Of a stretch of DNA of 38,875 bases, positions 1,755 through 29,114 are shown piece after piece. The position numbers and the translations under genes are program-made. Under the pieces are notes generated by a model. That model worked only from the letters and a program-made list of their open reading frames with translations. It ran no database searches and had not been told where the DNA came from. The number at the start of each line of letters is the position of its first letter. Position 1 is the stretch's first letter. This DNA is from a virus, in IMG/VR virus record IMGVR_UViG_3300025655_000100, positions 1 through 38,875 of that record; one strand, given 5' to 3'.

Positions 1755-3254
1755 ATGGTCAGTTCATATACGCTAACCTCATATAAAGATACTAGTTTTA
1801 CGGCTAGAGATATAGTAACTGACACAAATACTGTAAGATTTGATATACGTAGTCTTGCTAGTGATACTTTTAGTGGTAGGTTTGATATTAGGCAACTTGC
1901 TCTTTATTACAAATCTTTCTCCCCCAACTCATTCACATCAACATCATACAGAACATTAGATGAAGATATCAACTTAACATCAAGATTTGATATTAGGCAG
2001 GGGGAGATTAATTCACACTTAACAAATAAATTCAATATAAGACAAGCAATAACAGATACACTAACTAACAGGTTTGACATAAGACAAATAGTATCTAATA
2101 CACTTACATTACCATTTGGACTTTTTGTAACAGTTGCAAACACACTTACAAATCTGTTTGACATAAGAGAAGCAACAAGTGATACACTTACAAACAAATT
2201 CCATATTAGAGAACAGATAGGTATTCTAGGTAGTTATCTTGATAACTCATTTACAACAGCATCATACACGATTGCAGACCTATCAAGAACATTTAAATTT
2301 GATATAAGACAGGCAGTTACAGAAACTGTTACATCAAAGTTTGATATAATATCACAGTTAATTGACACATTAACAGCAAGATTTGATATAAGAGAAAAAG
2401 TAGTTGATACTATTACAAACAAGTTTAACATTAGACAGGCAATTACAAAAGCAGTTACAAACAAGTTTGATGTAAGACAGGCTATTCTTCCAACTATCAC
2501 AAGCTTGTTTGACATAAGAGAAAAGGTGGTAGATACAGTTACAAACAAATTCCATATAAGAAATGCAGTAAGCGATACAAGGACATTCCTATTTGACATA
2601 AGAGAAAGAATAGTAAAAGCACTTACAAATAGATTTGACATAAGAGCAATTGCAATTGCATTACCAGGATATACAAGTGACTCTTACACTACAACATCAT
2701 ATACTACACAGATAGGAACTGTTCCACAACTTACAGTTCTGTTTGATATAGCAAGTGTATTAGCAGGAAGAACATTGTCTATTAAATTCGATATAAGAGA
2801 AAAACTAATAGATACGTTAACCAACAGATTTGATATTAGACAGATAGCATCTGACTCAAACACTTTCAAGTTTATTATCAGATCATTAATAGCAGATACT
2901 TTAACAAATAGATTTGACATAAGACAGGCAATTCCAGATACTTTGACTAATAGATTCGATATAAGATCCAAATTAACAGACACATTGAATAACAGATTTG
3001 ATATTAGACAGATAGCATCTGACTCAAACACTTTCAAGTTTATTATCAGATCATTAATAGCAGATACGTTAACAAGCAAGTTTAACATAGTAGGTCAGAT
3101 AGAAAGCACATTAACATCATTATTCCATATAAAATGGCTTTTCTTAAACAAAAGAGTTGTAAAAACTACAGCAAATTCAAGAAGAGTAAGAACAAATTAC
3201 AAGAGTGCAAGGGTGGAAATACCAGATTCAACAAAAGAAGTAGACACACTATAA
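1755..3254 (+). CDS. Fibre-like protein of about 27 repeats of 14 residues
   Basis: Almost the whole of this 499-residue protein is a tandem repeat with consensus DTLTN(R/K)FDIR(Q/E)xxx, 14 residues per unit. About 27 units can be read, with conservative changes (FNI, FHI, FII, LFDI). Four 'S(F/Y)TxxSY' spacer modules, near residues 3-12, 55-65, 165-175 and 300-312, divide the array into blocks. The last 45 residues are basic and not repeated. A regular short period with alternating polar and hydrophobic residues suggests an elongated beta-solenoid or fibrous rod, such as a tail fibre or host adhesin. TTATAAATA at 1721-1729 overlaps the previous stop and sits about 30 bases before the ATG, as expected for a leaderless transcript. 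No known family was recognised. Confidence 0.6.
   Translation: MVSSYTLTSYKDTSFTARDIVTDTNTVRFDIRSLASDTFSGRFDIRQLALYYKSFSPNSFTSTSYRTLDEDINLTSRFDIRQGEINSHLTNKFNIRQAITDTLTNRFDIRQIVSNTLTLPFGLFVTVANTLTNLFDIREATSDTLTNKFHIREQIGILGSYLDNSFTTASYTIADLSRTFKFDIRQAVTETVTSKFDIISQLIDTLTARFDIREKVVDTITNKFNIRQAITKAVTNKFDVRQAILPTITSLFDIREKVVDTVTNKFHIRNAVSDTRTFLFDIRERIVKALTNRFDIRAIAIALPGYTSDSYTTTSYTTQIGTVPQLTVLFDIASVLAGRTLSIKFDIREKLIDTLTNRFDIRQIASDSNTFKFIIRSLIADTLTNRFDIRQAIPDTLTNRFDIRSKLTDTLNNRFDIRQIASDSNTFKFIIRSLIADTLTSKFNIVGQIESTLTSLFHIKWLFLNKRVVKTTANSRRVRTNYKSARVEIPDSTKEVDTL
2823..2899 (+). repeat. 77-bp exact direct repeat, copy 1
   Basis: This 77-bp stretch inside the repeat-protein gene is identical by eye to 2991-3067. 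The offset is 168 bp, which is exactly four 42-bp (14-codon) units. Other units in the gene differ at the DNA level, so this pair looks like a recent in-frame duplication. Confidence 0.85.
2991..3067 (+). repeat. 77-bp exact direct repeat, copy 2
   Basis: Second copy of the 77-bp repeat at 2823-2899. The two copies diverge immediately outside the identical core (ATACT against ATACG at the right edge). Confidence 0.85.
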
Positions 3255-3678: not shown

Positions 3679-4440
3679 ATGGTTGTAAATAAAATAGTAC
3701 AAGATAATGCTTATTTTGCATTTAGAAAGTCACAAATGAAAGCAATGCATACTGAACGACTTGGTGTTATTCATGTATCTGATTTGATTAAGGCTTGTAT
3801 TAGAAATGTTATGTATGGTAAATTTACTCCACCCGAGTATAAGACCATGACAACAGAGGATATGAAATCACTTTATTTTGGTCAAGCAATACACTCTGCA
3901 AGTGAAGTTGCTGATCCAGAAAAACATGAGATGTTTCTTGCATATGATTACGAGCAAGACAAAGCATTAACATATGAAGAAGCAAAAAAAATTCCACAAG
4001 ATGATCCAAGACAGTTGGATATTATTTATGGTAGCATAGATGATGTAATTGAAGTAGATGGAGAATTAGTTATCTGTGACAAGAAAACAACAGGATCTAT
4101 TGAATACTTTCAAAAACATAACTCAAGTGCATCTGATTCACATATGGCACAGATTAATTGTTATCGTGCATTATTAAACAAGTGTTATAATCTTGATGCA
4201 AAACGTGGGTGTGTAATATACATATCAAACTCCATATCAAAAGAGAAATATGACAAACCTACACCTATATCATTCCTGTTAAAAAAACCAGAAGAAGTAT
4301 TACAAGAAATGATAGCAAACGCAAAAAAGATCAAAGAATCAATAAAGTCAGATAAACTACCAGAGAGAACAAGATGTTATCTTTGTGATGGTATGTGTCC
4401 GTATGCTAACAAATGTTTTGAGTCATTTGGTGAAGATTAA
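3679..4440 (+). CDS. Cas4-like / RecB-family PD-(D/E)XK nuclease with cysteine cluster
   Basis: This 253-residue protein has the layout of Cas4/AddB-type nucleases. C40 comes early, then H72 in GQAIHSASE, the core YGSIDDVIEVDGELVICDKK (D121/D122, D134, K136) and motif QxxxY (Q158, Y162). At the C terminus are C232, C235, C239 and C245 in CYLCDGMCPYANKC. Together with C40, these could bind an Fe-S cluster as in Cas4 and AddB. Family members are ssDNA exonucleases acting in recombination or spacer capture. No CRISPR array or other cas gene is nearby, so a role in viral DNA recombination or end processing is more likely. The start at 3679 is supported by the first conserved block; a weak TATA-like CTTATTA lies about 26 bases upstream. 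Confidence 0.8.
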   Translation: MVVNKIVQDNAYFAFRKSQMKAMHTERLGVIHVSDLIKACIRNVMYGKFTPPEYKTMTTEDMKSLYFGQAIHSASEVADPEKHEMFLAYDYEQDKALTYEEAKKIPQDDPRQLDIIYGSIDDVIEVDGELVICDKKTTGSIEYFQKHNSSASDSHMAQINCYRALLNKCYNLDAKRGCVIYISNSISKEKYDKPTPISFLLKKPEEVLQEMIANAKKIKESIKSDKLPERTRCYLCDGMCPYANKCFESFGED

Positions 4441-5673: not shown

Positions 5674-6195
5674 ATGCCTGATGATATTAAGTTAAAAGAG
5701 AATAACGGCAAACTAGAAGCGAGTATCGATAAAAGAAAATCTATTAGTTCATTTAACGCAGCAAAGCATTTGAGATCAGCAGAACTTCCTGCACTTTGTA
5801 ACGATTGTATTTACAGATCCATTGATACAGGGGGGAATGGAAAATGCCCAAAATATGAAGCAGATGCAACGTGTGCAATACGAGCAGATATACAAAAAGT
5901 AATAGGAGATATGGACACAAGAGATCCAGAACAACTAAAAGGCATACTTGATTATCTAGTAAAACTATACACAGAACAGATATTTGTAGCACTAGGAGAA
6001 TCCAAGATGGACGGAAACATACCTGATAGAAACACAAACGCACAATTAAACTCACTACTAAAAATTATCAACACTATGATAGAATTATCAGGTAAGGTAG
6101 AGATTAAAGAAACACAGGTATTTGACGAGAAGAATATAATGAAAAGCATCTTTAAAGAAATGACAGCAAAGAAATCTATGATGGAGAATGGCTAG
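5674..6195 (+). CDS. Candidate small terminase subunit (TerS-like position) with cysteine motif
   Basis: The protein has 173 residues and its 3' end overlaps the large terminase by 8 bases, the usual place of the DNA-recognition small subunit. The N-terminal third has CNDCIYRS ... GKCPKYEADATC (C42, C45, C58, C67 approximately), a likely zinc site. The rest is helical: a long amphipathic stretch after 'DPEQLKGILDYLVKLY' and 'NTNAQLNSLLKIINTMIELSG' could form the oligomerising coiled region. Family similarity is not visible by eye, so the call rests on position, size and domain plan. Confidence 0.5.
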   Translation: MPDDIKLKENNGKLEASIDKRKSISSFNAAKHLRSAELPALCNDCIYRSIDTGGNGKCPKYEADATCAIRADIQKVIGDMDTRDPEQLKGILDYLVKLYTEQIFVALGESKMDGNIPDRNTNAQLNSLLKIINTMIELSGKVEIKETQVFDEKNIMKSIFKEMTAKKSMMENG

Positions 6196-7585
6196 ACCAA
6201 CAGAAGATGATATTAAGAAACGAGAAGAGTTTGTAAGAACATTTGTAGAATGTGCTCAGACTCCATCAAAGTTTTCAGAAGTATTTCTTAATCATGGATT
6301 ATTTGAATATAACAAAAGATATGTTAATTGTCTAGATAGATTCATAGTATATCGTAGTGGTAGACAGGTAGGTAAAACCATGTCAACTGCTGTCAAAGCC
6401 ATACATTTTGCTTTCTTTGCTCCTATGCTTTTAGAGACAGTTGATAAGGAATGTACTATTTTGATTGTTGCACCTACCCAAAACCAGGCAAGTATTATGT
6501 ACGATAGAATCAGAGCATTGATTATGGGAAGTGATATTCTTGAAGATTACATTGTAAGAAACACACAAACTGAAATGTGGTTAAGATGGTTAGATGATAG
6601 AGGAACTACAAAGATAGTTACTCGTGCAACAGGTGAATCAGGTACAGGACTTAGAGGTTATTCTCCACACGTTATCATAGTTGACGAATGTTCGTTTGTA
6701 AAAGAAGATATACTTACAGCATTATTCCCTGCAGGTTCTGCAACTAAAGCAAGAGTATGGCTGACATCAACTCCGTTTTCAATGATGGGTTATTTTTACA
6801 ATGCTTGTAATAACTCTAAAACAATTAACGGAGAACCTGTATCAAGTGATGGACAATGGACACAGTTTCATGTAAGATCAACCGACAACCCATTGATTGC
6901 AAATGATCCAGAGTATATGAAATTCCTGGAAAACCAAACAAGAGAAAGTTATGCACTTGAAGTGTTAGGTGAATTCCTGGAAATTGGTAACGCATTGATA
7001 CCACAAAATCTTTTGCAAGATGCAATGGTAGAGAGTCACCCAGATGGTAGCACTAGATATTATGTTGGTGTTGACGTTGCAAGAAGTGGTATGGACGAAA
7101 CAGTATTTACTGTAATTGGATTAGATGAAAAAGATACAGTTCATGTAGTTTGGCAAGAAAAAGAGGGTCAATCAAACATTGTAGATGTAGCAGGTAAGAC
7201 ACAAGAGTTAGCAGAAAAGTTTCACGCAGAAATGGTTTACGTTGATGAAACAGGATTGGGAGCAGGACTATATGATTTGCTACAAGAACGTGCTGTAGTT
7301 GTAAGAGGCATAGTATTTTCACTTAAAGAAAAAGAATCTATATACAAGAATCTTAGAGTGTTGTTTGAACAGAAACGCATTAAGATAGGGGGGAGACAAG
7401 AATTAGCAAAACAACTAGGAATGTTAAGAAGAGAATACACAGAAACAAAACTCATGAAGATAAAATCAGAATACAAAGATGATCATGCAGATTCACTAGC
7501 AATAGCCTGTCAAGCAGTAGCCACAGGAGATCAATGGCACGTAGTTAAGATGTCACAAAAGTTACATGACAGTCTATTCGGTTAA
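6188..7585 (+). CDS. terL: Terminase large subunit (ATPase-nuclease)
   Basis: This 465-residue protein shows both domains of a DNA-packaging motor. The ATPase domain has Walker A SGRQVGKT (57-64), Walker B VIIVDE (162-167) and the coupling motif LTSTP (192-196). The RNase H-like nuclease has D296 in GVDVARSGMDET, D353 in VYVDETGLGAG and D435 in DDHADSLAIA, the three expected metal ligands. Length is typical. It packages viral DNA into proheads through the portal and cuts concatemers. The start ATG overlaps the preceding gene, indicating translational coupling. All key residues are intact. Confidence 0.93.
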   Translation: MARPTEDDIKKREEFVRTFVECAQTPSKFSEVFLNHGLFEYNKRYVNCLDRFIVYRSGRQVGKTMSTAVKAIHFAFFAPMLLETVDKECTILIVAPTQNQASIMYDRIRALIMGSDILEDYIVRNTQTEMWLRWLDDRGTTKIVTRATGESGTGLRGYSPHVIIVDECSFVKEDILTALFPAGSATKARVWLTSTPFSMMGYFYNACNNSKTINGEPVSSDGQWTQFHVRSTDNPLIANDPEYMKFLENQTRESYALEVLGEFLEIGNALIPQNLLQDAMVESHPDGSTRYYVGVDVARSGMDETVFTVIGLDEKDTVHVVWQEKEGQSNIVDVAGKTQELAEKFHAEMVYVDETGLGAGLYDLLQERAVVVRGIVFSLKEKESIYKNLRVLFEQKRIKIGGRQELAKQLGMLRREYTETKLMKIKSEYKDDHADSLAIACQAVATGDQWHVVKMSQKLHDSLFG

Positions 7586-12643: not shown

Positions 12644-12886
12644 ATGGCAAGAAGAAAACAAAGTTGCACTCACACAACAATAAGCGTAAAGTGGGAAGAC
12701 AAAGAACTATTCAGAAAATACGCAAAGTCAGTAAAAGAAACTAAGAATGGAATCATGAATGAAAGTGACTCTGTTTTGTTTCACAGAATACTTGAAGAAT
12801 ACAAACAGAATCATCCACTAGAAGAAAACGCTACAGCTAAGAAAACTTATCCAGAAAAGCCTACTATCAAAACCCAACTTACGTAA
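12644..12886 (+). CDS. Ribbon-helix-helix-like regulator (80 aa)
   Basis: The basic N terminus MARRKQSCTHTTISVKWED followed by two helices (KELFRKYAKSVKETKNG, ESDSVLFHRILEEYKQNH) is the pattern of MetJ/Arc-type ribbon-helix-helix DNA-binding proteins. The C-terminal 20 residues are polar and probably flexible. Its own stop codon lies inside a perfect 14-bp palindrome at 12876-12889, a likely operator controlling the next gene. Probable transcriptional regulator of the replication module. Confidence 0.6.
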   Translation: MARRKQSCTHTTISVKWEDKELFRKYAKSVKETKNGIMNESDSVLFHRILEEYKQNHPLEENATAKKTYPEKPTIKTQLT

Positions 12887-12912
12887 GTTAACTTAAGTAA
12901 ATTACGTAAGTT
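12876..12912. promoter_or_regulatory. Nested palindromes, candidate operator before the replication genes
   Basis: A perfect 14-bp palindrome AACTTACGTAAGTT (12876-12889) is followed by ACTTAAGT and a second TTACGTAA (12902-12909) with half-site AAGTT. The whole 37-bp block is close to self-complementary. It lies between two ribbon-helix-helix-like genes and just before the second, so autoregulation is likely. A run of eight T bases follows at about 12914-12922. Confidence 0.55.
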
Positions 12913-12959: not shown

Positions 12960-13301
12960 ATGGTTAATTTAAACAAGACAATGATAACTTTATCTACGTC
13001 AGAAGATACTAGAAAATCTTTCATAAAGTTAGATAAAATAAGACCTAACAGTATTTCTTTTAGTAGGTTCTTAGGTGTAGCAGCAAAAGAATATGCTGAA
13101 AGACATAGTACAGGAGATTATAAGATTGAGGACTTTGTATCAGAAGAAGTTTCTCTCACACCAAAATTCTTCGCAGAGATTGATATATGGAAAAGACATA
13201 TTCTAGAACTAGATAATGTTAGATATAACGAATTTAGTAAAAGATTAGAACAGTTAAATAATATCAAAAGAATAAAACTAGGAGGAATGTTGACTTGGTA
13301 A
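12960..13301 (+). CDS. Second ribbon-helix-helix-like protein (113 aa)
   Basis: Residues 1-45 (NKTMITLSTSEDTRKSFIKL then SISFSRFLGVAAKEYAERH) fit a ribbon-helix-helix domain: a short strand and two helices. The C-terminal half is a long charged helix (FAEIDIWKRHILELDNVRYNEFSKRLEQLNN) that could dimerise. The gene ends over the start of the MCM gene, and its last codons contain the GGAGG ribosome site for MCM. A regulator or replication accessory tied to MCM expression. Confidence 0.5.
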   Translation: MVNLNKTMITLSTSEDTRKSFIKLDKIRPNSISFSRFLGVAAKEYAERHSTGDYKIEDFVSEEVSLTPKFFAEIDIWKRHILELDNVRYNEFSKRLEQLNNIKRIKLGGMLTW

Positions 13302-15259
13302 CTCATACACAATCTGCAATGGCAGATAGAATCTTTGATTATTTTTATTCAAAGAAACTTGTTGACGTTATTGATAATCTGACTCCAATGAGTACGTTCA
13401 GACTTGATGCTTCTGATGAAGAACTTGTTGACCTGTTTCTTGACAACAGTAAGTTGTTTCAATTTGCAGCAAGAGATGCTGTGATAAGAATCATTCAACA
13501 AAAGTATCCAGAATTAAATGTTGACTTGGAGTTTAAGAATCTTAATGTTGAACTTACAGTTGAGAATGAGATTCAACTTCATTCCATAAGTCCAAAATAT
13601 GAAAACACTCCAATACAATTTGTGTGTGAAATAATAGGAATGGATGAAAGAAAAACATACATGAAAGAAACAGTTTTGGTTTGTCCAAAGTGTTATAGAG
13701 AACAATCTGAGAAAGCAGATTTTTACAAAAGAATAAACAAAGTATATTGTCCAAATTCAAACTGTAAGAAATCAGAAATGTTACCTGATCCTTTGAGAAC
13801 AAAAAATGAATATGTTCAGACTTTGTTGGTTCAGGAACCACTTGATGAAGCGTTAAACAATTCGCCTGTCATATTTGTGTCTAAGGTTTACGATCATCAT
13901 ATAGGCAAAGCATTTGTTGGTCAAAAGAAAAAGGTTACAGGTATATTCAAATCTATTAGAACAAAGACAGAAGAAAATGATATAGTTATACAAATCATAA
14001 GTATGGACGATCTTGATAGGTGTGATGTGATTTATCCAACAGATGATGAAATCATGTCATACAAGGAACAGGTGAAAGACGGAAAGAACTTTATCACAAA
14101 GTTGGTTAACTCTTTTGCTCCTGACATCTATGCAGATCAATTGTATCGTGACATAAAGTATTCCATACTTCTTCAGTTAGTGGGGGGAGTAAAGACAAGA
14201 AAAAGAGGAGACATAAACCAACTACTAGTAGGAGATCCATCAATGGCAAAGTCAGAACTACTCAAAGCATCAAAGCGACTTACACAGAAAAGCATATTCA
14301 CATCAGGTAGAGGAGCAAGTGCCGCAGGTCTAACAATAGGTATAGTAGAATTACCAAACGGAAGAAAGGTAGCACAAGCAGGAGTCATGCCGTTATGTTC
14401 AGGTGGTCATGCTATGATAGATGAGTTTGACAAAATGAATCCAACTGATAGAAGTGCCATGCATGAAGCAATGGAACAGCAAACAGTATCTATTGCAAAG
14501 GCAGGTATCAAGTTGACTTTACCTGCACAGACAAGTGTCATGGCAGCAGCCAATCCAATCTATGGAAACTATGACATGGAAAGAACTCTTGCAGAGAACT
14601 TAAACTTACCACCACCATTGATAACAAGATTCGATTTGATTTGGTTGTTGGTTGACAGAGTGAACCAAGACGATGATACAAAGAAAGCATATCATATACT
14701 TATGTCATATCAGACAGAGAATGATGATGTCATATTTACAGAAGATCAGATGATTGCATATCTAAACTATGCAAGAGATTTGAAACCAACATTGACAGAA
14801 GAAACACATGAGAGATTGATTTCACTCTACAACAAGATGAGAAGTAAATCAAAGAACAACTCAATCACTGTTGGTGTCAGACAGTTAGAAGCACTCGTTC
14901 GTTTGTCAATGGCAAGAGCCAAACTTTTGTTAAAGTCACAAGTTGATGTTGAAGATGTTGACGATGTAACAGAGTTGTTAAAGTCAAGTTATCGTTCACT
15001 AGACTTAGACTTAGACTTGGGAGATAGTATGACTCAGCAGACTTTGTCAGCAAACGCATCAAAGAAACACATAGCCTTGACCATACTTGGCAACATCGCA
15101 GGGGTGGAGAATAGATTCAAAGAGAAAGACTACAAGAAAGAACTAAGTAAACACGAGAAGTTCAGCGACCACGAAGCAGAAAAGATGTGGGTACAACTTG
15201 AGAAAGAAGGCTTAGTAAAGATAAATTCAGACGGAACTTGCAGTCGAACGAATTTATGA
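13295..15259 (+). CDS. mcm: MCM replicative helicase
   Basis: This 654-residue protein is a full-length archaeal-type MCM. The N-terminal domain has a zinc site C130, C133, C152, C157 and an OB-like region. The AAA+ core has Walker A VGDPSMAKS (312-320), Walker B MIDEFDKMN (374-382), sensor 1 N420 in MAAANPIYG and arginine finger R445 in LITRFDLIW. A winged-helix-like C terminus (HEKFSDHEAEKMWVQLEKEGLV) follows. It unwinds DNA as a ring at the viral fork. The TTG start at 13295 is supported by GGAGG nine bases upstream; ATG 13319 is the alternative. Sequence is intact, and the host polymerase is presumably recruited. Confidence 0.93.
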   Translation: MVTHTQSAMADRIFDYFYSKKLVDVIDNLTPMSTFRLDASDEELVDLFLDNSKLFQFAARDAVIRIIQQKYPELNVDLEFKNLNVELTVENEIQLHSISPKYENTPIQFVCEIIGMDERKTYMKETVLVCPKCYREQSEKADFYKRINKVYCPNSNCKKSEMLPDPLRTKNEYVQTLLVQEPLDEALNNSPVIFVSKVYDHHIGKAFVGQKKKVTGIFKSIRTKTEENDIVIQIISMDDLDRCDVIYPTDDEIMSYKEQVKDGKNFITKLVNSFAPDIYADQLYRDIKYSILLQLVGGVKTRKRGDINQLLVGDPSMAKSELLKASKRLTQKSIFTSGRGASAAGLTIGIVELPNGRKVAQAGVMPLCSGGHAMIDEFDKMNPTDRSAMHEAMEQQTVSIAKAGIKLTLPAQTSVMAAANPIYGNYDMERTLAENLNLPPPLITRFDLIWLLVDRVNQDDDTKKAYHILMSYQTENDDVIFTEDQMIAYLNYARDLKPTLTEETHERLISLYNKMRSKSKNNSITVGVRQLEALVRLSMARAKLLLKSQVDVEDVDDVTELLKSSYRSLDLDLDLGDSMTQQTLSANASKKHIALTILGNIAGVENRFKEKDYKKELSKHEKFSDHEAEKMWVQLEKEGLVKINSDGTCSRTNL

Positions 15260-15293: not shown

Positions 15294-16304
15294 ATGGAAT
15301 CTGAACTAGATTTAGAAAGACAAGAACAGGAATCAGAGATTGAACCTGAACTTGATATTTCCATCTCACAACTAAAAGGACTTGGAGCAGTTTCCGAAAA
15401 GAAACTCAATACTTTTGGTGTGTTCACTTTGTATGATTTGTGTGTCAGAGGCTCACAAGAACTACAAGAAATAACAGGAGCCAATAAAGAAACAGCAGAC
15501 TCTTGGGTATTCAAAGCAAAAGATATGTTAGAGGAAAAAGGACTTATTCGAAAAACGGATATGGACTGCATTGAATTGTTAGAGTATCAGGAGAAGCAAC
15601 ATAGACTTACACTTAATGTAGAGTCTATTGATAATCTGTTTGGTGGTGGATTGCGACCTGAATCTTTGTATGAGATATACGGAGAATTTGGTAGTGGTAA
15701 AACACAATTCTGTTATTCATTAACAGCAGAAGTTATAGCACAAGGAGATAATGTAATATGGATTGATTGTGAAGATACATTCAAACCTAAACGACTTGTG
15801 GAAATTCTTATTGCAAAAGGACACGCAACAGATATTGAATCAAGTAAGGATATGTTAAGACGTGTTACTTACTTATACGCTCCAAACACAGAAAACTTGA
15901 TGGGTATCATCAACAATATGTCAGAAAGAATGTTGAAAGATAGACCAAAGTTAGTAGTTGTAGATGGTTCGGTAGGTCAGTTTCGTGAAGAATACTTGGG
16001 TAGAGGAACTTTAGCTGCAAGACAAAATCAGTTAGCAAGACTTATGACACACTTAAAGAATGTTTCATATTATTTTGTATGCACTGTTCTATTTACAAAC
16101 CAAGTGCAGACCGATCCTAGTGTTATGTTTGGAGATCCTGTCAAACCTATTGGTGGCAATGTTGTAGGACACGCAAGTACTTATAGACTTTACTTCAAGA
16201 AAGCAGGTAAGAAACACATTGCTAGAATGGTTGATAGTGCTGAAGATGCAACACAAGACGTTGAATTCGTCCTAGATGCAAAAGGCATATCCGAAATTGA
16301 ATAA
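15294..16304 (+). CDS. radA: RadA recombinase
   Basis: The protein has 336 residues. The N-terminal helix-hairpin-helix domain (ISQLKGLGAVSEKKLNTFGV, residues 24-43, then 45-84) is typical of RadA. The RecA core has Walker A GEFGSGKT (130-137), Walker B LVVVD (220-224), the L1/L2 loop region around GRGTLAARQNQLARL, and the ATP-cap-like TNQVQTDPSVMFGDPVKPIGGNVVGH. It forms filaments on ssDNA and catalyses strand exchange. ACTTTTATT about 26 bases before the ATG suggests its own leaderless transcript. It probably serves recombination-dependent viral replication or repair. Confidence 0.92.
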   Translation: MESELDLERQEQESEIEPELDISISQLKGLGAVSEKKLNTFGVFTLYDLCVRGSQELQEITGANKETADSWVFKAKDMLEEKGLIRKTDMDCIELLEYQEKQHRLTLNVESIDNLFGGGLRPESLYEIYGEFGSGKTQFCYSLTAEVIAQGDNVIWIDCEDTFKPKRLVEILIAKGHATDIESSKDMLRRVTYLYAPNTENLMGIINNMSERMLKDRPKLVVVDGSVGQFREEYLGRGTLAARQNQLARLMTHLKNVSYYFVCTVLFTNQVQTDPSVMFGDPVKPIGGNVVGHASTYRLYFKKAGKKHIARMVDSAEDATQDVEFVLDAKGISEIE

Positions 16305-21107: not shown

Positions 21108-21758
21108 CTAATGCAGATGATAAGAAACGTTGCTCTCTCTTGACCAACAAGTTCTACAAGATCCACATTCGTTTCCTTGTTCTCTTGCAGGACAACTAGG
21201 ATTCTCTTTTACTACTGTGCTAGTTCCTATAAAACCTTTTACGTTTTCAAAGGAATCTAGTTTGTTAGCAAACTTTGTGGGGGGAAGTCCATCAATCATA
21301 TAAGCAGAAAGCCTAACATACATATTAACAGGAACTTCCTTACCACTCTCTACATAAGCCTGAACATATGCATACTCTTTAGTAGGTAGCCAATGCTTTG
21401 TATCAGGTGTTCTCTTTGCAACTTCCATTATATTACAAAGATGAATCATAGAATGTATATCCCCACTATCATGCCATCTGAAATAAGATTTATCTCTACG
21501 ATTATTTAATAAATGAACCATAGCTTCAACCCATTTCTCATGGTATATGTTTACCAATCTTCTATCCCTTGCTTCTATACCTTGCTTGAATCTATACATT
21601 CCTTTGAACGCATAGCAATCCTCACATACAGAACCTTTTATATTGACTAACTTGCTACCCATTTGACAGGCTTGTGCAGGTATGCTAATACTAGGGCAAG
21701 GCATTTTACTTGTGTAGGTAAGACCACCTACAATATTTTTTGCTTCTAATGTATTCAA
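21108..21758 (-). CDS. Gp88-like phage protein (cysteine-rich)
   Basis: The TTG at 21758 is preferred: GGAGG lies nine bases upstream, whereas a GTG at 21767 directly touches that site. The pattern KMPCPSISIPAQACQMGSK ... GSVCEDCYAFKGMYRF ... RDRRLVNIYHEKW ... YFRWHDSGDI is the gene-product-88 family of phages. A C-terminal CGSCRTCWSR resembles a metal-cluster site. Members are widespread in viruses and of unknown biochemical role; the conserved Cys and RWHDSGD suggest a metal-dependent enzyme. Confidence 0.65.
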   Translation of the reverse strand: MNTLEAKNIVGGLTYTSKMPCPSISIPAQACQMGSKLVNIKGSVCEDCYAFKGMYRFKQGIEARDRRLVNIYHEKWVEAMVHLLNNRRDKSYFRWHDSGDIHSMIHLCNIMEVAKRTPDTKHWLPTKEYAYVQAYVESGKEVPVNMYVRLSAYMIDGLPPTKFANKLDSFENVKGFIGTSTVVKENPSCPAREQGNECGSCRTCWSRESNVSYHLH

Positions 21759-21770
21759 ATCATACACCTC

Positions 21771-25816: not shown

Positions 25817-26335
25817 TTATAAATCTTTGCTGGTTTTGACTTTCAGAAATTTTGGTTTGTTGCGTTTTGTATATTGAAGTATGTGTTGTTTATTAGTTCT
25901 GTAATAGTTTTGGTAGGAATATATAACATTGCTAAACCTATTATTACTGCTATCAATCTTTACTTCATCAGGCATAGCCCTAGCGAATGGCGTTAAACCA
26001 ATATCAGGTATGTTAGGCATAGGTAAATTACCAATAGCATTATATGATTTGTGATTGTCTACTTTATTATACCTGTATTTATATTCCTTGTTTAGTTCTT
26101 CAACGAGTGATAGTAACCATTTGTAATTGCCTAGACTATCTCTAATCCATTTATTACATGGGTGGTTTTTATGTGTCATCTTATATGGTATCTCATAATT
26201 TACTTGTTTGTTAGGCATAAGATGATGAGTAGTGCATACCATTTGTGCTGATTCTAGTATCATCTTTACAACGTGCTTATCACAATGCCACCTAGCACAC
26301 TCTTTGGGAGAGAGAGATAAAGCAAAAATATTCAT
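25817..26335 (-). CDS. Conserved phage protein with 'CDKHVVKMILE' signature (172 aa)
   Basis: Opening MNIFALSLSPKECARWHCDKHVVKMILESAQMV, then HPCNKWIRDSLGNYKWLLSLVEELNKEYKYRYNK with an H-rich stretch, matches a family common in tailed phages. Members are sometimes compared with pyrimidine-dimer glycosylases because of their helical fold and conserved His/Glu residues. That enzymatic role is not shown by anything visible here. The ATG overlaps the upstream mini-gene. All conserved blocks are present. Confidence 0.55.
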   Translation of the reverse strand: MNIFALSLSPKECARWHCDKHVVKMILESAQMVCTTHHLMPNKQVNYEIPYKMTHKNHPCNKWIRDSLGNYKWLLSLVEELNKEYKYRYNKVDNHKSYNAIGNLPMPNIPDIGLTPFARAMPDEVKIDSSNNRFSNVIYSYQNYYRTNKQHILQYTKRNKPKFLKVKTSKDL

Positions 26336-27161: not shown

Positions 27162-27744
27162 AACTCAATTTTTTTTGTGGAATAAAAGCATTTCCCAACA
27201 AAACACCGTTGGAAAGGTGGGAGAATACATAAATAAAATACACATAGACATACTTATCCAATAAATATACTATCTAATCTAATATATACCATAATACGAG
27301 GTGGGAAAGTAATAAAAATACCTACATAACCACATACAATAACCTAGTAATAACCCTAATAGAAACACTAATTGTCATATATACTTCTTATTTGTTTTAC
27401 TCTTTAGGCACGACTATAACACCCTAACTCTAGCCACCTATATATAAATCCTACTAAATAATTATTTTTAAGATACAAATATATATGGGCAATATTAGGC
27501 ACGAAATAGATAGATATATATAACCCTGCTTAAGTGTACAACTTAATCACTTATAGTAAGACTTTAGTTTATATACTTAATATTATAAGTAGACTTATAT
27601 ACTTAGTGTACAACTTAAGTAAGTGAAACTAAGTGGCATCAATGCCGAGTTATCCTCTCGCTGTAAGTATTCACACTTTGTTAAGTGCTTATTCCTTATT
27701 CTAGCCACTTAGACAAAATTGATTAGTAAAAAGAAAAAAAGGGA
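27162..27744. other. AT-rich noncoding region with hairpins and repeats
   Basis: No supported gene was found in 580 bases. It contains a hairpin CCAAC/GTTGG (about 27196-27212), several TATA-like TATATA runs, two copies of the 9-mer GTACAACTT (27536-27544, 27608-27616), and a putative structured RNA at 27629-27712. It may be a control region together with 28105-28448. Confidence 0.5.
27629..27712 (+). ncRNA. Second putative structured RNA
   Basis: CTAAGTGGC (27629-27637) is perfectly complementary to GCCACTTAG (27704-27712), closing an 84-base domain. Inside are CACTT/AAGTG around a TGTT loop (27673-27686) with TAAG/CTTA below it, and a competing GGCAT/ATGCC hairpin. TTATATAC at 27593-27600 is about 30 bases upstream. 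GC content of the inner part is higher than the surroundings. Direction and expression are not proven; a plasmid-like control RNA or protein-binding site would also fit. Confidence 0.4.
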
Positions 27745-28104
27745 TTAAATCCCTGTTGTATTGCCATAAGGCGTCATGGTTAATACGGCAATACCGTGTT
27801 TTTCCATGTCTTTTACGGCTTTTGTCCAATGCTCTTTTTTAATACCTTTGTTAAAGTATTTTCCAGATGGAAAGGCATAACCATTTGACTTTATCCAGCT
27901 TGTGAATTCTGGAGTTGTGAAACTAGTTATGTTATAGTTTCCTGCTTTGGACACACTAAAAACAATTTGACTCATGCCATCAGCCAATTTCTTAGTTAAT
28001 GGACTATATGTCTTATTGTTTGTTGGAGCTTTTTTCGCATTGTTCAATTCTTGTTGAAGTCTTGCAATTTCTTGCTCCATGTCTTTTTTTGTCATTTTTG
28101 TCAT
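27745..28104 (-). CDS. Coiled-coil protein of unknown function (119 aa)
   Basis: The N terminus MTKMTKKDMEQEIARLQQELNNAKK is a two- to three-heptad coiled coil. Residues 40-119 form a compact mixed domain with aromatic pairs (NYNITSFTTPEFTSWIKSNGY, KEHWTKAVKDMEKHG, AVLTMTPYG). GTTATATATAC is centred about 29 bases before the ATG, so this is a leaderless gene reading away from the candidate origin. No family recognised. A DNA-binding or origin-binding role is possible because of location only. Confidence 0.5.
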   Translation of the reverse strand: MTKMTKKDMEQEIARLQQELNNAKKAPTNNKTYSPLTKKLADGMSQIVFSVSKAGNYNITSFTTPEFTSWIKSNGYAFPSGKYFNKGIKKEHWTKAVKDMEKHGIAVLTMTPYGNTTGI

Positions 28105-28191
28105 TACCTACCTAATCTCACGCTTTGTATATATAACTTGTCTATACGAACTATATAGTTCTATATAGTCAATATAGTTCCTATGTTTCTA

Positions 28192-28210
28192 GTACGGTAC
28201 GGTACGGTAC
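28192..28210 (+). repeat. Tandem GTACG repeats
   Basis: GTACG three times followed by GTAC, giving overlapping versions of the same GTACGGTAC iteron found at 28417-28447. Confidence 0.75.
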
Positions 28211-28416
28211 TGCATGGTGGCGTACAACTTATACACTTAGCGTACAACTTATAATATAATACTTTAAATAACTTATTTCTACTTAATTAAAAAAACCTCA
28301 ACTTAAAGGGGGAGAAATTAATATCAATAAAACTAACAATACTTACTATAATAAACTTAAAAAAATATACTTAATATATACTTATATACTTATACTTACC
28401 ATATATATATCTTTCG

Positions 28417-28447
28417 GTACGGTACTAGTACGGTACGAGTACGGTAC
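28417..28447 (+). repeat. Three 11-bp iterons (GTACGGTAC plus TA/GA)
   Basis: Exact GTACGGTAC copies at 28417-28425, 28428-28436 and 28439-28447, one per helical turn. All three are in the same orientation. Confidence 0.8.
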
Positions 28448-28448
28448 T

Positions 28449-28499
28449 AAAAAAAGGATATTTAACCTTTTCCCTACTTTTCATAGTAGGAAAAGGGTT
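28449..28499 (-). terminator. Hairpin plus T-run terminator of the leftward small gene
   Basis: AACC/GGTT, TTTTCC/GGAAAA and TACT/AGTA pair between 28464 and 28499, with two single-base bulges. On the minus strand the hairpin is followed by seven T bases (28449-28455). It lies just after the stop at 28506. The shape is like a bacterial intrinsic terminator. Confidence 0.5.
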
Positions 28500-28667: not shown

Positions 28668-29114
28668 TCAAGATTGGGATATCTCCCAACCGTGCTTTTT
28701 TGCGTGAGTTTTTGCAAGACCGTTTAGAGTAGTTCTGTTATGAAACACTCTTGTTTTTCCATCTTTCGTATTTGAAACTACAAAAAACTTTGTCGATTTG
28801 GCATATTTAATAAACTCGTCAATATTACCTTTGTCAGCATGTAAGAAGTCATTGTTTTTGTTTTTTGCAAAATAAATTTTGTTTCCGAATTTTTTACTTA
28901 CTTCGTCTTGTGTCATCTGTTTTGTTTTATTGTTAATTGATTCTGTGACTTTATCAGAATCAACTTTGGAATCATTAAAAAATTTAGATTCTAGTTTGGA
29001 TTTTTGGTTATTGAGTTTTTCAATTTTTGCATTGATTTTCTCAATTTTTCTAGTGGCAATTTTTTTGCCTAGTGCTGAAATTGGGTTAACAATTTCAAAT
29101 GTGATTTTTACCAT
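28668..29114 (-). CDS. Coiled-coil basic protein (148 aa)
   Basis: Residues 14-50 form a strong Lys-rich coiled coil (KKIATRKIEKINAKIEKLNNQ). The C-terminal 60 residues are a compact domain with alternating strands (KFFVVSNTKDGKTRVFHNRT) and a final helix LNGLAKTHAKKHGWEIS, reminiscent of small nucleic-acid-binding modules. CTTATTAT is about 26 bases before the ATG. No family recognised. Confidence 0.5.
   Translation of the reverse strand: MVKITFEIVNPISALGKKIATRKIEKINAKIEKLNNQKSKLESKFFNDSKVDSDKVTESINNKTKQMTQDEVSKKFGNKIYFAKNKNNDFLHADKGNIDEFIKYAKSTKFFVVSNTKDGKTRVFHNRTTLNGLAKTHAKKHGWEISQS

Follow-up and report, generated by a model that had tools for sequence, protein, structure and literature searches.

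A conserved, helically phased iteron array beside low-stability DNA as the probable replication origin of a putative marine archaeal tailed virus

Where does a virus that carries its own MCM helicase begin to copy its DNA? The question is raised by a repeat-bearing stretch between two small genes of a virus record of 38,875 bases, the whole of which was analysed (the window, G000), and which an initial annotation had put forward as a candidate origin of replication. The MCM gene reported in that annotation was recovered, as were genes for a recombinase and the large terminase:

6188-7585: large terminase gene
13295-15259, plus strand: MCM replicative helicase gene (PF00493, E 4.2e-70)
15294-16304, plus strand: RadA/Rad51 recombinase gene (PF08423, E 6.6e-50)

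The window also encodes a portal, a protease and a major capsid protein. The portal is distantly similar to those of haloarchaeal tailed viruses (24% identity) and the MCM has its matches among archaeal viruses and archaea; judged from its sequence, the source is probably a marine archaeal tailed virus. It possibly belongs to the Marthavirus type, the Marthavirus-like viruses of ammonia-oxidising archaea being likewise aquatic archaeal tailed viruses with radA, a gene named as typical of them in the sections of PMC7678222 covered, where an origin is not mentioned. Neither Rfam matches nor tRNAs were found in the window. Other features of its coding complement are a tandem repeat of about three 84-bp copies (2810-3075) within a 499-codon ORF (1755-3254), a Cas4-like/exonuclease PHROG match (3679-4440, best E 1.4e-13), a gene kept in relatives that matches Pfam Gene product 88 (21108-21767, PF17338, E 9e-27), and a protein matching the phrog_624 DNA-binding protein (25817-26335, E 2e-53), with an additional weak Pyr_excise match.

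All six copies of GTACGGTAC in the window occur on one strand within 256 bp (28192-28447), against 0.04 expected, a number reached in none of 100 shuffles. They form two arrays that flank an AT-rich region:

28148-28161, no strand assigned: perfect 14-bp palindrome GAACTATATAGTTC, left of the left array
28192-28210, plus strand: left array GTACGGTACGGTACGGTAC, three overlapping copies of GTACGGTAC in 5-bp steps
28211-28414, plus strand: melting-prone stretch, proposed unwinding element, 78% A+T
28222-28251, plus strand: two repeats with GTACAACTTA, at 28222 and 28242
28417-28447, plus strand: right array, three copies of GTACGGTAC starting at 28417, 28428 and 28439, an array type conserved in relatives

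The exact 11-bp spacing of three copies, as first described, is borne out by the right array, and so is the AT-rich stretch between the repeats. This stretch has the lowest nearest-neighbour stability in the window at both 100 bp and 150 bp, and carries 12 ACTTA on the plus strand and none on the minus strand. The left block had been read as four tandem GTACG copies; the block exists, but it consists of three GTACG and a final GTAC. The palindrome is likewise real, being one of five of at least 14 bp in the window, although it lies outside the arrays and not in the spacer to which it had been assigned. Both copies of GTACAACTTA stand as claimed, with two further copies at 27536 and 27608, outside the interval proposed for the element; when one mismatch was allowed, GTACAACTTA was not enriched window-wide (7 found, 4.3 expected). 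Two contigs nearly identical to the window (L002 and L082) end before the array, and the window array is thus known from one assembly.

Matches to GTACGGTAC were obtained at least once in 13 of 49 virus records of a first set and in 3 of 30 of a second. Since a pattern read backward as a control gave four hits in each set, the single matches (six in the first set, two in the second) are near chance. Arrays at the place equivalent to that of the window were read directly in G003 (contig L006), G001 (L004), G043 (L097), G044 (L098) and G066 (L254). G001 was kept despite having one exact GTACGGTAC, its near copies being in register and its place syntenic, whereas G047 (L092) and G049 (L096), having been recruited through the pattern, were excluded from the relatives. 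Contig L096, a virus contig of 14.9 kb which shares one detected protein stretch with the window, has four phased TACGGTA by tandem AGTATGGAT repeats (1696-1746).

The array-bearing relatives share 58-81% portal identity with the window and 43-67% MCM identity where an MCM is present, the G001 contig ending before that gene. Wherever the MCM and portal genes are present, the array is oriented along their strand; it lies about 2.9-5.8 kb before the portal and, by contig coordinates in the window, G003, G043, G044 and G066, about 15-22 kb downstream of MCM on the same strand. Counting against an origin, the two copies in G048 (L094), about 2.2 kb ahead of the portal, run opposite to it. The recurrence of the iterons in related genomes, which the initial annotation had suggested looking for, is found: place, strand and helical phase are the same in five further genomes.

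The arrays of the six genomes contain 27 exact TACGGTA and none on the opposite strand. The 43 pairwise distances in five arrays (the right array of the window, L006, L097, L098 and L254) fall near multiples of about 10.4 bp with a mean cosine of 0.91, a value to be read with the caveat that any tandem repeat with a unit of 10-11 bp is necessarily in phase. Gaps that lack a site also span whole helical turns (20-22 bp), a stronger argument for phasing than the tandem spacing. The array copies occupy one face of the helix. In G043 three more TACGGTA, inverted, occur beyond the far side of the AT-rich stretch, so that sites flank it as they do in the window.

The least stable 100 bp adjoins the array in five of the six genomes (window, G003, G043, G044 and G001), the DNA scanned being 38.9 of 38.9 kb, 53 of 56, about 37 of 53, about 35 of 44 and 13.5 of 17, respectively; the result for G044 holds by a very small margin at 100 bp and fails at 150 bp. 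In the same five genomes ACTTA occurs 12, 9, 13, 13 and 13 times on the array strand and 0, 0, 0, 0 and 1 times on the opposite one, giving totals of 60 ACTTA and 1 TAAGT. Shuffled sequences average 1.8-3.3 ACTTA, and none of 200 reached the array-strand count in any of the five. G066 weighs against an origin, its least stable 100 bp not being beside the array and ACTTA repeats being absent from that side of it. Directly by the G066 iterons are three copies of a repeat resembling TTTGAGCGACTACTTAAACATTACCC (L254:7640-7745).

The locus is therefore built like an iteron origin, with direct repeats that share one orientation and helical phase, adjacent AT-rich DNA of low stability, and repeats confined to one strand. 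With a probability that we put at roughly 0.7, it is the replication origin of the virus, of the iteron kind. The candidate origin first proposed is thus supported by conservation and by the position of the least stable DNA in five of six genomes, and is the best-supported reading rather than a demonstrated one.

The surroundings of the arrays bear on a different role, that of a transcription control region in which a regulator on the phased sites and ACTTA clusters would switch leftward early and rightward late genes:

12876-12912, no strand assigned: ACTTA/TAAGT cluster, with the palindrome AACTTACGTAAGTT, ahead of the pair formed by a ribbon-helix-helix (RHH)-like gene and MCM
27529-27624, no strand assigned: ACTTA/TAAGT cluster, the window's densest (11 in 120 bp), together with two GTGTACAACTTA
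27745-28104, minus strand: small gene adjoining the element
28464-28499, minus strand: hairpin then T run, possible transcription terminator (z -2.4)
28668-29114, minus strand: small gene with homologs at the equivalent place in four close relatives

Gene direction changes close to this region. On the minus strand the hairpin comes before it, separating the array from the leftward genes upstream, although the hairpin was not one of the four terminator-like sites identified. ACTTA/TAAGT clusters are densest at three positions (27531, 28281 and 12845), which lie on either side of gene 27745 and ahead of the RHH-MCM pair, whose promoter region shares the ACTTA/TTAACT motif; the cluster at 12876-12912 is proposed to be an autoregulatory site, and DNA resembling that at 27529-27624 occurs at the equivalent place in L006, L097 and L098. 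ACTTA-rich DNA could contain archaeal TATA boxes, and the G066 array is upstream of a rightward gene. Such features would suit transcriptional switching. Nevertheless, both neighbours are leftward in the window and in G003, which does not fit one conserved promoter, and an operator would need neither the least stable DNA of the genome nor repeats on one strand.

The neighbours themselves add a further argument. In the close group the array is found between two leftward genes with homologs of 28668 on one side, whereas in G066 no homolog of 26670, 27745 or 28668 was detected and the gene right of the array points the opposite way, yet the array is retained. Because neighbours are exchanged while the array persists, a genome-level element is favoured over the operator of a single gene, and we regard a transcription switch as an unlikely account of the locus. 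Binding of the site by the products of 27745 and 28668, as initially suggested, is also weakened, both being poor candidates given that G066 keeps the iterons with no detectable homolog of either. Searches and alignments of the two proteins gave weak, uninformative matches, their structure models are too poor to use (pLDDT 49 and 53, respectively), and the viral contig scan revealed no relatives of 27745.

The change in GC skew that the initial annotation had expected at an origin gave no independent support. Cumulative skew is lowest near 31 kb, which is where the genes change direction, and tracks their orientation; third-position GC skew in the window shows no difference between leading and lagging strands, and skew was discarded as a line of evidence. 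A host chromosome was also considered as the source of the sites and rejected: a two-copy match occurred in one of 300 genomes of one archaeal class, with no array or origin gene there, and the phased triple in none of the 300, among which the true host group may not be represented.

In a search for a virus-encoded DNA-binding partner, attention centres on the gene that precedes the helicase:

12960-13301, plus strand: ribbon-helix-helix-like gene, overlapping the MCM start

A gene of this type, of about 100-115 codons, is directly upstream of MCM in 24 of 24 loci, that is, the window and all 23 relatives, hand-picked from MCM loci, in the alignment of 24 rows. Its assignment to the ribbon-helix-helix proteins is weakly indicated by an in-register CopG match (E 0.56; pairwise hhalign P 4e-4, probability 34%) and by other weak matches to ORF56 (one member, E 0.075) and VAPB_antitox (two members, E 0.015); the N-terminal profile had no match in the PDB. 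The DNA upstream of the gene ranks in the top 5% of 200-bp windows of the locus for ACTTA in 14 of 24 cases and for TTAACT in 17 of 24. As a reader of GTACGGTAC, this protein is weakened as a candidate by the comparison of G028 and G066, which have the same strand residues, KKTTTISIS; because G028 shares them but lacks GTACGGTAC, the protein is probably not the sole reader. It is nonetheless the leading virus-encoded DNA-binding candidate for some step, perhaps by way of ACTTA/TTAACT rather than GTACGGTAC.

A partition site is another structure that such a protein might bind. The parC locus of plasmid R1 is an RHH-bound partition site with 11-bp iterons, and the element could be a similar centromere, having an AT-rich stretch between two blocks of 11-bp phased iterons in a genome with an RHH-like protein. 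No partition NTPase, however, was identified among the window proteins searched, which were a subset of the ORFs, and the RHH-like gene lies about 15 kb from the array and is linked to MCM instead. We consider a role in partition very improbable.

Phased sites of this kind are not restricted to these viruses. A pattern scan of viral contigs recovered 16 stretches, most of them in phages unrelated by gene content, so that the motif alone does not identify this virus family; an exact three-copy scan returned a sole match, L090, apparently a bacterial phage. Phased TACGGTA triples were observed inside or beside initiator-like genes at L263:11604-12377, L271:4935-5936, L262:2672-3215 and L259:14042-14560, the genes in question matching replisome organizer, DnaD-like or O-like initiator families, and those of L270 and L260 are likewise in or beside initiator genes. 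The linkage of phased triples to replication genes in L263, L271 and L262 is a likeness to the present locus, but these phages are unrelated by gene content, their sites lie in or next to the initiator gene, and the origin role there is putative.

Other phased triples occur near matches to terminase small subunits, at L264:8152-8770, L267:12101-12865 (also L258) and L261:1174-2245. Such proximity in unrelated phages would be compatible with a packaging (pac) site that the terminase small subunit recognises, the orientation of the array setting the direction of packaging; the conserved orientation agrees with this, and contig ends scattered round the genome fit permuted genomes. The large terminase gene of the window is, on the other hand, about 21 kb from the array, the window proteins searched included no recognisable small subunit, and a pac site does not need an unwinding element. 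Packaging appears to us a quite improbable explanation.

Repeats of other sequence occupy a similar place across the family. Lineage-specific short repeats in non-coding DNA 2-6 kb before the portal were seen in L065, L062, L031, L076, L043 and L074, examples being ACGCGTA in L065 (twelve times), CTATCGA in L031 and GCGATCA in L074; these examples come from a comparison of the portal loci with at least 2.6 kb upstream. At 27 of 38 portal loci the 300-bp segment richest in repeats is located 2-6 kb ahead of the portal, with 11 exceptions; this survey comprised 32 portal loci hand-chosen from 80, the window and a further five loci, and omitted near-duplicates, among them L032, L033, L054, L055 and L079. 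The pattern fits a turnover of both site and reader, but it is given little weight because non-coding DNA collects repeats anyway.

With the locus taken as an origin, we infer a course of events at the element in which a sequence-specific protein would bind to adjacent phased TACGGTA sites along the same face of the helix, the resulting strain would open the adjacent AT-rich stretch, the one-strand ACTTA repeats may hold protein on the exposed single strand, and the virus's own MCM would then be loaded at the opened stretch, the host supplying the polymerase and the rest of the replisome. In the sections of PMC4081077 covered, plasmid origins of the RK2 oriV/TrfA type similarly have direct repeats by an AT-rich unwinding element with strand-specific repeats, and plasmid Rep proteins bind those repeats. 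The present case differs in that it concerns an archaeal tailed virus, that MCM takes the place of a DnaB-type helicase, that no winged-helix Rep gene was found beside the viral array, and that binding is here only putative.

Archaeal Orc1/Cdc6 origins with ORB elements, as presented in the sections of PMC4010727 covered, also have an AT-rich region flanked by repeated motifs, with MCM loading expected, but the viral repeats are short phased iterons and neither PolB nor Cdc6_C was found in any of 15 family records, several of them incomplete. The Cdc6_C search (PF09079), whose controls were positive in 3 named genomes, revealed no linked orc1/cdc6 gene in those 15; that neither a Cdc6 gene nor a proven initiator gene stands beside the array counts against an origin. 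We infer that the virus uses the host polymerase and that the loader is either viral and unrecognised or the host's.

A more specific proposal, which we hold tentatively and consider rather doubtful, is that MCM loading here is virus-specific and dispenses with Orc1/Cdc6, taking place at an iteron origin with one-strand ACTTA, that the RHH-like partner controls both its own operon and the origin through ACTTA/TTAACT, and that the iterons turn over while their place is kept. No description of how MCM is loaded at a specific viral site in the absence of an Orc1/Cdc6 gene was found in the part of the open-licence PMC literature covered. As a compact and conserved element, such an origin would offer a handle for studying in vitro how it is bound and opened and how MCM is loaded, and in read-depth data it could serve as a marker of marine archaeal viruses that are replicating.
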